Of a stretch of DNA of 64,000 nt, positions 5,614-41,989 are shown one piece after another (positions within the stretch are counted from its first letter, which is position 1; each line of letters begins with the position of its first letter). Source of the stretch: Marivivens sp. (GTDB lineage Bacteria > Pseudomonadota > Alphaproteobacteria > Rhodobacterales > Rhodobacteraceae); the NCBI GenBank assembly GCA_024642115.1, contig JAHEBU010000001.1:620001-684000 (forward strand), in the 5' to 3' direction. Below the pieces are notes generated by a model that was given only the letters and a program-made list of their open reading frames with translations, ran no database searches and was not told the DNA's origin. The position numbers and the translations under genes are program-made.

Positions 5614-6183
5614 ATGGCAAATTTCGGACGTCTGATTGATGCCTATATCAGCAATCCCAAAGCGCGCCCAACGATCCTGATCGCCGCCGCTGTAGCGCTT
5701 GGCGTCCTGCTGGCTTATGGCAAAGGCTACCGCGATGGCCAACCCGCAGCCATCAGCGCGACCCGGCCCGCGTCACCGCCTGTCGAGGCCGGACAAATCG
5801 GGTTTGGCCAGTCGGCAGAGGGCGACCTGCCTCAAGGTGAAACTCTGGTCTGGAGCTTTTATGGCGCGCGCGACACCCTTGTCACAATCCGGCTCAGAGC
5901 CGATTGGGTCAGCCAGCTTCGGTTGACCGGGCCGGGCGGGGTCCGTCTGGGCGAAACCTACGTTTCCCCCGGTGAAAAGAGCGCGGTCATCTGCGCCAAA
6001 CGGTTGCCCCAGGATGGCACATACACTGTTCTGCTGAATGGCTGGGGCAGCACCCCGGCGACCAGTTTTGGCCCTTATAGCCTGACGCTGGAGCAGGCGC
6101 AGACCCCTGAACAAACGCCCGAAACCACGACCACCGCTCAAGGAGCCTTCGTCATGGTTCGGACCGTATCCAGCTGCCGCTGA
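5614..6183 (+). CDS. Membrane-anchored protein, 189 aa, function unknown
   Basis: A single N-terminal membrane segment (about residues 20-36, PTILIAAAVALGVLLAYG) is followed by a ~150-residue periplasmic part. The beta-rich pattern (WSFYGARDTLVTIRLRA, LRLTGPGGVRLG, DGTYTVLLNGWG, FGPYSLTLE) resembles a jelly-roll of the bacterial pre-peptidase C-terminal type. No catalytic signature is seen. It lies 88 nt after accA on the same strand and may be read through from it. The tail is Thr/Gln/Pro-rich. Confidence 0.6.
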   Translation: MANFGRLIDAYISNPKARPTILIAAAVALGVLLAYGKGYRDGQPAAISATRPASPPVEAGQIGFGQSAEGDLPQGETLVWSFYGARDTLVTIRLRADWVSQLRLTGPGGVRLGETYVSPGEKSAVICAKRLPQDGTYTVLLNGWGSTPATSFGPYSLTLEQAQTPEQTPETTTTAQGAFVMVRTVSSCR

Positions 6184-39376: not shown

Positions 39377-39706
39377 GTGAACAGAACTGAATTCATCATC
39401 GCCACGGCGATCATCCTTTTCGTCGCCTTCTGTCTGGGGTGGTTTGCCAGCTGGCTGGTCAACCGGTTCACCCGCGTCACCAAGGCCGAGATCGGCGAGT
39501 TGGACAAGATGGCTCAGGCGCTGCACGAGGCCGAGGAAACCCGCGATCAGGCGATCACCTACCTTCAGCAAAGGGAGGCCGAGATCACCAACCAGCTGAG
39601 CCAGACCGAGGCAGAGCTGAGGGCGGCGATGGATGGTCTGAGGGAGGCCCGCCGCGAGGCGGAGGAGATGCGGACCTATATCGAGCGCAAGAACATGGCT
39701 GGCTGA
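39377..39706 (+). CDS. Membrane-anchored coiled-coil protein, 109 aa
   Basis: GTG start after AAAGGA. One membrane helix (residues ~6-28, FIIATAIILFVAFCLGWFAS), then a continuous heptad-rich Glu/Arg/Gln helix to the end (about 38-103). This is a common small companion of OmpA-like proteins in Rhodobacterales. No enzymatic motif. Confidence 0.8.
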   Translation: MNRTEFIIATAIILFVAFCLGWFASWLVNRFTRVTKAEIGELDKMAQALHEAEETRDQAITYLQQREAEITNQLSQTEAELRAAMDGLREARREAEEMRTYIERKNMAG

Positions 39707-39901: not shown

Positions 39902-40443
39902 TTACCTTGCCCTGTCCTGTTCATATGGGTTCGGGCTGATCAGAGCCAATTTCCCCGGCCCTTCGAACACCTGTACCCCGCCAATCCATCGGACGACTGG
40001 AAAGTCCGCGGTCATGGCGGACATCCGTGAAGGGTCATCGGGCGAGTCTACGGTGGCCGCGCCGAACACATTCGGCAAGAACGCCTGAACGTGGACCAGC
40101 CCTAATTCGGCCGGACTGTCCGCCCTCTTTCCAACCCGTTCAAAGACCACATCAAGCGCATGGTAGTCCAACAAATAGCCTGTGACCGGCGGATCGGACA
40201 GGAACAAGTCTGTAGCGTCGATGGCCCAGATGAAATCGCCCTCTGCCTGCTGCAAAAGTCCGGTAGCCGGATGGCCGGGGACGGAGGCGAGACCGAAATC
40301 ATCCTTGAAAACCCGGCGCTGGCGGTCGCCCCCAGAACCGCAGTGCCGGACCGGGCGCAACCGCCGGCGCCGGGTCGGAAGCGATGTCCGTCAGTTCGGG
40401 ACAGCCCCGCCAGAGCTTGAGTTAGCACCAGATCGTCGCCCAC
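39902..40443 (-). pseudogene. Decayed gene with two single-base frameshifts
   Basis: Three successive frames read as one protein: VGDDLVLTQALAGLSR, then LTDIASDPAPAVAPGPALRF, then DRQRRVFKDDFGLASVPG and onward for ~140 residues (FIWAIDATDLFLSDPPVTGY, VFERVGKRADSPAELGL, VVRWIGGVQVFEGPGKLAL) to a TAA at 39902. The shifts fall near 40395 and in the five-base run at 40329-40333; each looks like one extra base. No family recognised and the true start is unclear. The rest of the 39707-40575 gap holds no other credible gene, and 39730-39780 is AT-rich. Confidence 0.55.
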
Positions 40444-40575
40444 TGCGATTCCGGCGGGTCGGTCATCCGGTCAAGGCAAAGGTCGGACATTGGGCCAGCT
40501 GCACACAGAACACTTTGCGACCCAAGACAGAGATACGGGCCGGGATCAACCGATCCCGGCCCGCACAGAGTTACC

Positions 40576-40908
40576 TCAGCACGGAACGCAGGCGCATTCC
40601 GGCGGGTTTGCATCGTTGCAGATGCAGCACCAGTTGGACACCGCGCCGACAGCCCCCAGATTGGGGATCAGCGACCCCGCGCCGGGCATCGGGCGCGTCA
40701 CGAAGTGAAAGCTGGACGCGGTGATCTTTTCGGAGCCTGCCAACCGCTGAAGCTCCAGCAATTTGTAGGCCCGTTCGACCACGGCGGCCCGCGCCTCTTC
40801 GGGGTCAGACAGCTTCATCGCCTTGACCCAGTCTGCCGAGGCGCTGGCCTTGAGAAAGCGGCGGTCCTTTTTGGTGGTGACGGCCACGAGTGTCGAAATA
40901 TCCGACAT
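40576..40908 (-). CDS. Small protein with Cys-rich C-terminus, 110 aa
   Basis: The ATG follows AAAGGA at 7 nt. Residues 1-70 are charged and helical (KKDRRFLKASASADWVKAMK, DPEEARAAVVERAYKLLELQ). A Gly/Pro linker follows (RPMPGAGSLIPNLGAVGA), then the last 18 residues WCCICNDANPPECACVPC contain six cysteines (94, 95, 97, 105, 107, 110) and end in Cys. A leader-plus-core layout like this is seen in ribosomal peptide precursors and in metal-binding tails. No modification enzyme, transporter or immunity gene is adjacent, so function is unassigned. It has no signal peptide. Confidence 0.75.
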   Translation of the reverse strand: MSDISTLVAVTTKKDRRFLKASASADWVKAMKLSDPEEARAAVVERAYKLLELQRLAGSEKITASSFHFVTRPMPGAGSLIPNLGAVGAVSNWCCICNDANPPECACVPC

Positions 40909-41047
40909 GATTTGTCCTTTCAAAATTGAGTTCTTAAAAAGCCGCCTGCCGAACCGGGGAAAATACCCCAAAGACCTGCGACAAGATAAAGGTGCCATAT
41001 CAATCGCCCCCCGCCTATGGGGGTATTCATGACCTTGCCCCCAACAG

Positions 41048-41989
41048 CTAGCGGGGCGCTGCCGCCCGCCGCAGCCGATCATTGATTGCCCGCCCCAGCC
41101 CGTGGTCCGGGATTGGGGCCACGGCAATGTGGGTAGCGGTCATCGCGTCAAGCTGGTGGAGCCGGTCAAACAGCACCGCCGCCGCCTCGGTCAGGTCGCC
41201 CGTGGCCGACAGCGTCAGGTCGCCCTTGATTGGTCCGAAGCCGAGCAGCGTTTCCCCCGCATTGGCCGTGGTTGCCTCCATTCGGACCGATCCTGCGGGG
41301 GCGTAATGCGAGGCCAGTTGCCCGGGGGCGGTAATGTCTACCCCTGCGGCGGCCAGAGGGTAACCCAGACACGCCTCGATCGTCTCGGTCGGTATGCCCC
41401 CCGCCCGCAGCAACGCAGGTTCCCCCGCGCAACCGATGATCGTGGATTCAAGCCCCACACCACAGGCCCCGCCGTCCACGACCGCGTCGATCCGACCCGA
41501 CAGACCGGCAAGCACATGCACCGCCGTTGTCGGGCTGATCCGCCCCGAGGGGTTGGCCGAGGGGGCTGCGACCGGCCCGCCGAACGCGTGCAGCAGTCCC
41601 TGCCCGACCGCATGGTCCGGCACCCGCACCGCCAGCGTGTCCAGCCCTGCCGTCACCAGCTGCGAAATCCCCGATCCGGGTTTCAGCGGCAACACCAGCG
41701 TCAGAGCCCCCGGCCAGAATGCGTCGGCCAGTCCCAGCGCATCGGGCGTGAAATCAACCAATTCCTGCGCCGCCTCAAGGTCCGCTACATGCACGATCAA
41801 AGGGTTGAACGAGGGCCGCCCCTTGGCCGCATAAATCCCCGCAACCGCCCGGTCATTGCGGGCGTCAGCCCCAAGTCCGTAGACCGTTTCCGTAGGGAAC
41901 GCGACCAATCCGCCCCTTTGCAGGATTTCGGCGGCATTGCGCAACCCTGCCGTGTCGGCCGACAGAACAAGGGTGGTCTGGTCCGTCAT
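41048..41989 (-). CDS. L-threonylcarbamoyladenylate synthase (Sua5 type)
   Basis: 313 residues. The YrdC/TsaC domain occupies ~1-200: VAFPTETVYGLGADA near 30, KGRPSFNPLIVHV near 56, PSANPSGRISPTTA near 140 and STIIGC near 183. A C-terminal Sua5 domain follows (SHYAPAG linker near 224), so this is the long form. It makes threonylcarbamoyl-AMP for t6A37 of ANN-decoding tRNAs. The ATG at 41989 is used; the frame upstream to 42403 overlaps the divergent dehydrogenase gene. Confidence 0.93.
   Translation of the reverse strand: MTDQTTLVLSADTAGLRNAAEILQRGGLVAFPTETVYGLGADARNDRAVAGIYAAKGRPSFNPLIVHVADLEAAQELVDFTPDALGLADAFWPGALTLVLPLKPGSGISQLVTAGLDTLAVRVPDHAVGQGLLHAFGGPVAAPSANPSGRISPTTAVHVLAGLSGRIDAVVDGGACGVGLESTIIGCAGEPALLRAGGIPTETIEACLGYPLAAAGVDITAPGQLASHYAPAGSVRMEATTANAGETLLGFGPIKGDLTLSATGDLTEAAAVLFDRLHQLDAMTATHIAVAPIPDHGLGRAINDRLRRAAAPR

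Follow-up and report, generated by a model that had tools for sequence, protein, structure and literature searches.

An orphan open reading frame with a six-cysteine C-terminal tail in Marivivens sp.

The 64,000-nucleotide stretch of Marivivens sp. DNA analyzed here, referred to as the window, carries on its minus strand an orphan open reading frame (ORF) of 110 codons (positions 40579-40908, stop codon at 40576-40578) that probably, though not certainly, represents a real gene. Our best explanation, held tentatively, is that of a lineage-specific, single-copy orphan whose product would be a cytosolic protein combining a basic helical front with a β-hairpin tail able to bind a soft metal through its cysteines. 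The ORF lies where the original prediction had placed it with the strand unstated; the plus frame across 40576-40908 corresponds to a different sequence, and the minus-strand protein has the C-terminus ...SNWCCICNDANPPECACVPC. The encoded protein, with a calculated mass of 11,756 Da (11.8 kDa), begins with a charged leader, as had been described, with residues 1-58 (40735-40908, minus strand) being basic (pI 9.6) and containing two low-confidence predicted helices at 25-30 and 36-57. The Gly/Pro linker that had been noted is found at residues 74-90, and the tail (residues 93-110, WCCICNDANPPECACVPC; 40579-40632, minus strand), predicted to form a β hairpin (93-98/104-109), contains cysteines at 94, 95, 97, 105, 107 and 110, exactly the positions originally listed. 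Inspection of the sequence also agreed with the earlier statement that a signal peptide is absent, and no Sec-like signal was seen.

The gene call is based on codon use together with a ribosome-binding site and a terminator-like hairpin. Direct reading of the sequence identified AAGGAC at 40914-40919 (minus strand), 5 nt upstream of the ATG, which bears out the good ribosome site reported before. An alternative in-frame start, a TTG at 41127, would extend the protein upstream, but the ribosome site sits at the ATG instead. Directly after the stop codon lies a G+C-rich intrinsic-terminator-like hairpin (40533-40566, minus strand; 15 base pairs, a 4-nt loop and a weak T run), a feature absent from the original prediction. 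The hairpin stretch folds with -35 kcal/mol (z -5.4), and none of 200 shuffles was equally stable. GC content by codon position is 0.57/0.52/0.82 for the ORF (40579-40908). With a log-odds coding score trained on 15 genes from the window, the gene frame was the best of six at 0.30 bits per codon, the other minus-strand frames scoring -0.48 and -1.11. For stretches of 110 codons, this value falls between the 1st (0.24) and 5th (0.34) percentiles of true genes and exceeds the threshold for the top 1% of wrong frames (0.22). We also scored synonymous codons, a measure insensitive to the rarity of cysteine; this score was positive in both halves of the protein, reaching 0.15 over residues 1-58 and 0.19 over residues 59-110 (reference values: true-gene median 0.22, wrong-frame 95th percentile 0.08). 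We consider it unlikely that the ORF is spurious and untranslated. Such an explanation could draw on the codon signal missing from the last 18 codons (-0.09 when taken alone, with too few codons to judge), on one antisense frame that scores nearly as high in the C-terminal half (synonymous-codon score 0.13) and on the fact that conservation was not found in the searched genomes. However, the gene frame scores best overall, GC at the third codon position reaches 0.82 and both a ribosome-binding site and a terminator-like hairpin are present.

Cysteine accounts for 0.72% of residues in genes and 3.5% in wrong-frame DNA, the latter being five times richer in Cys codons. At the gene frequency, the probability of finding at least six cysteines in the last 17 residues is 1.7 × 10⁻⁹, or 6 × 10⁻⁶ over a nominal 3,700 genes, while the same chance in wrong-frame DNA is 1.8 × 10⁻⁵ per ORF. 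Because wrong-frame DNA is richer in cysteine, the six cysteines can be said to exceed chance only if the ORF is a gene. Among 383 ORFs of at least 60 aa in the window, no other exceeds four cysteines in its last 17 residues.

Judged by sequence comparison, the orphan status of the 110-aa protein is firm within the databases searched. No family match was obtained in Pfam, NCBIfam, PHROGs or PADLOC, and tblastn detected no relatives in 397 family genomes, each from a different genus, or in 385 genomes of the class; in this searched set, the genus is represented by the present genome only. The gene is single-copy. Scanning some 85,000 GTDB species genomes for exact peptides, a method that detects close relatives only, returned nothing, and no relatives were found in plasmids, phages or viral contigs. 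Weak tblastn matches in 6 family and 18 class genomes were dismissed as chance, those inspected being wrong-frame, stop-containing or without the Cys tail. Scanning for the tail pattern yielded low-complexity or wrong-frame sequences, both among the matches listed from a collection of genome contigs and in the 397 family genomes. A scan of viral contigs for CCxC...PP...CxC returned short Cys/Pro-rich frames that are mostly repeated and probably not genes. Many viral contigs (L210-L237) share a common repeated Cys/Pro-rich frame, CCPCxxPxPPWCCCP, which is probably a single conserved viral gene read in the wrong frame. Separately, an even denser Cys tail (GNWCCQCLCMNLMCRGCCCIPC; L016, match at 5994-6056) was observed at the end of a Clostridia protein that is about 208 aa long and looks TPR-like on visual inspection. 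The 110-aa protein resembles bacterial ORFans in having no detectable relatives, in being short and single-copy and in occupying a variable spacer; it differs from them in the unusually high Cys density of its tail.

Upstream of the ORF and outside the feature lies the conserved gene for threonylcarbamoyl-AMP synthase (Sua5; 41048-41989, minus strand), followed by a divergent acyl-CoA dehydrogenase gene. The Sua5/acyl-CoA dehydrogenase adjacency is kept in nearly all of 29 relatives inspected, none of which carries the 110-aa ORF beside Sua5. On the other side, past a decayed ORF, a 109-aa coiled-coil-like protein and then an OmpA/BON protein are encoded. The 109-aa protein (39377-39706, plus strand) is conserved, apparently membrane-anchored and without a Pfam family above cut-off; a counterpart in genome G032 shares 85% identity with it over 88 residues. 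The corresponding G032 spacer, from Sua5 to the 109-aa protein, contains an unrelated Imm49 immunity gene instead (L134:2634-3461), and a weak match found in this spacer proved to be that gene read in a wrong frame. Since G032 holds Imm49 there, the spacer accepts accessory genes and looks like a site for such genes that varies between genera. A decayed gene had originally been placed next to the ORF, and this stays plausible for the orphan stretch at 39905-40461 (minus strand), whose frame is open yet non-coding-like, with apparent frame changes, and for which no relatives were found in the 397 family genomes. It contains a weak glycosyltransferase family 2-like motif (AEGDFIWAIDATD), and the stretch LLQQAEGDFIWAIDATDLF aligns to a solved glycosyltransferase in the PDB at E 1.6, a lead only. 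This neighbor was also considered as a modification enzyme and set aside, as it has no family match and the glycosyltransferase with E 1.6 is its only such match in the PDB.

It is conceivable, though rather doubtful, that the ORF represents a young or decaying orphan without settled function, that is, a recently acquired coding sequence between two convergent conserved genes whose Cys-rich tail is accidental. The fivefold excess of Cys codons in wrong-frame DNA, the failure to find relatives in the searched genomes, an adjoining ORF that is also decayed and orphan and a spacer that accepts accessory genes, such as Imm49 in G032, are all consistent with a sequence of this kind. However, codon usage over the whole ORF equals that of an established gene, and the ribosome-binding site is accompanied by a strong terminator-like hairpin.

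Going by its motifs, metal binding, which the original prediction had offered as an alternative, appears to stay the simplest reading of the protein. A basic helical front half would be joined through the Gly/Pro linker to the C-terminal β hairpin and, in the reducing cytosol, the six thiols would most likely hold a soft metal ion, either Zn(II) or Cu(I), with the CCxC and CxCxxC groups of the tail serving as ligands. The protein could then be a small module that binds or buffers metal. We infer the cytosolic location, the metal binding and any such role: because no export signal was seen, reduced thiols are expected, which makes metal binding the simplest mechanism. In favor of the metal reading, single-sequence modeling of residues 75-110 alone predicted a hairpin with strands at 93-98 and 104-109 (pLDDT averaging about 78 across the final 16 residues); the full-length single-sequence model contains nearly the same strands at poor confidence (pLDDT 47.7). 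In the predicted register, C97 faces C105 and C95 faces C107, with C94 and C110 flanking them.

Similar to bacterial metallothioneins of the SmtA type, the 110-aa protein is small, shows no export signal and has dense CxC and CxxC thiols, and the CACxxC piece of its tail is reminiscent of this type. It differs in that its cysteines all lie in the C-terminal 18 of its 110 residues, that it has only one His and that it has no Pfam match. No metallothionein match was found in Pfam, NCBIfam or the PDB, and Pfam searches at E 10 gave no match for either the whole protein or the tail. No metal-handling genes were found among the neighbors examined. Small Cys-rich proteins binding Zn and Cu are found in bacteria, and bacterial metallothioneins commonly contain His (PMC10612145), whereas the 110-aa protein has one His only, which argues against the metal reading, as does the failure to find a homologue that would show the cysteines to be conserved. 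The CCxC motif is shared with the copper chaperone Cox17, where it binds Cu(I) (PMC7909247); however, the 110-aa protein is bacterial and has neither the twin CX9C helices nor detected sequence similarity to Cox17.

The same hairpin could alternatively be laddered by disulfides and act on a protease through a Bowman-Birk-like canonical loop, C97-N-D-A-N-P-P-E-C105, with D99 as P1, which we regard as improbable. In PDB sequence searches, the tail matched only Bowman-Birk inhibitors, three in number (E 0.13, 2.4 and 4.1), CICNDANPPECAC fits the pattern CxCx4PPxCxC and the predicted register suits 97-105 and 95-107 pairing. When the last 18 residues were shuffled 100,000 times, this spacing occurred 113 times and the similarity score was reached 4 times, although the comparison was picked after the match had been seen and even the best E is 0.13. 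In the Bowman-Birk inhibitor motif CTP1SxPPxC, the P2 residue T and the P1' residue S are conserved (PMC7760496), whereas CNDANPPEC retains C, PP and C, with N and A replacing T and S. Foldseek analysis of the tail model returned no Bowman-Birk inhibitor among 50 listed PDB matches (best E 2.5), an uninformative result given that a model of 36 aa is short for this method. Further, there is no Pfam match, and with no export signal seen, disulfides are unlikely. The likeness to the inhibitor loop consists of the CxC-x4-PP-x-CxC spacing with NPPxC and a predicted hairpin, while the T and S are absent, P1 would be Asp, there is no second loop and neither an export signal nor a fold match was found. 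That the tail represents a bacterial Bowman-Birk-like loop evolved independently of plants and frogs, in the form of a minimal Cys-laddered C-terminal hairpin with an Asp P1 and a helical carrier, seems highly improbable.

The original prediction had further suggested a RiPP precursor, in which a helical leader and a Cys-rich core would be modified by an enzyme encoded elsewhere. The shape is leader-core-like and the genome does hold an MNIO enzyme, but this reading is otherwise unsupported, and we consider it very unlikely and reject it as the lead explanation. Reading of the ORFs over 36-46 kb and Pfam searches on 20 neighboring ORFs confirmed that no modification enzyme is encoded nearby. 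No SPASM radical SAM, YcaO or LanC-like protein was found genome-wide, with positive controls detected, in a search that took in these three groups and MNIO; the genome is 99.99% complete (tool estimate). Without SPASM, YcaO and LanC-like proteins, the most common routes of Cys modification in RiPPs drop out. The sole MNIO/DUF692 enzyme is part of a Buf1 bufferin operon on contig C8 (L008:940-3597), which encodes DUF2282, MNIO and DUF2063 proteins along with one that is DoxX-like by eye, and which provides the enzyme with its own DUF2282 substrate, to which the 110-aa protein shows no likeness. In Buf1 operons, precursors with Sec signals accompany the DUF2063 partner type (PMC12452194), whereas the 110-aa protein is without such a signal. 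The refuting test set beforehand was a lack of homologues with conserved tail cysteines; as no homologues were found in the genomes of the family and class, or in the plasmids, phages and viral contigs, the outcome by this measure went against a RiPP. MNIO-modified RiPPs such as bufferins and pearlins also have small Cys-containing precursors; the present system differs from them by the lack of an adjacent enzyme or partner gene, a Buf1-like Sec signal and a precursor-family match.

The 110-aa protein opens no new RiPP class and probably, in the main, comes from an orphan gene that is ordinary apart from the curious tail it encodes. If expressed, it would be one more species-level orphan whose function is unreadable from homology; its tail would offer a concrete and cheap handle in the form of an 18-residue synthesizable peptide for metal binding or protease inhibition.
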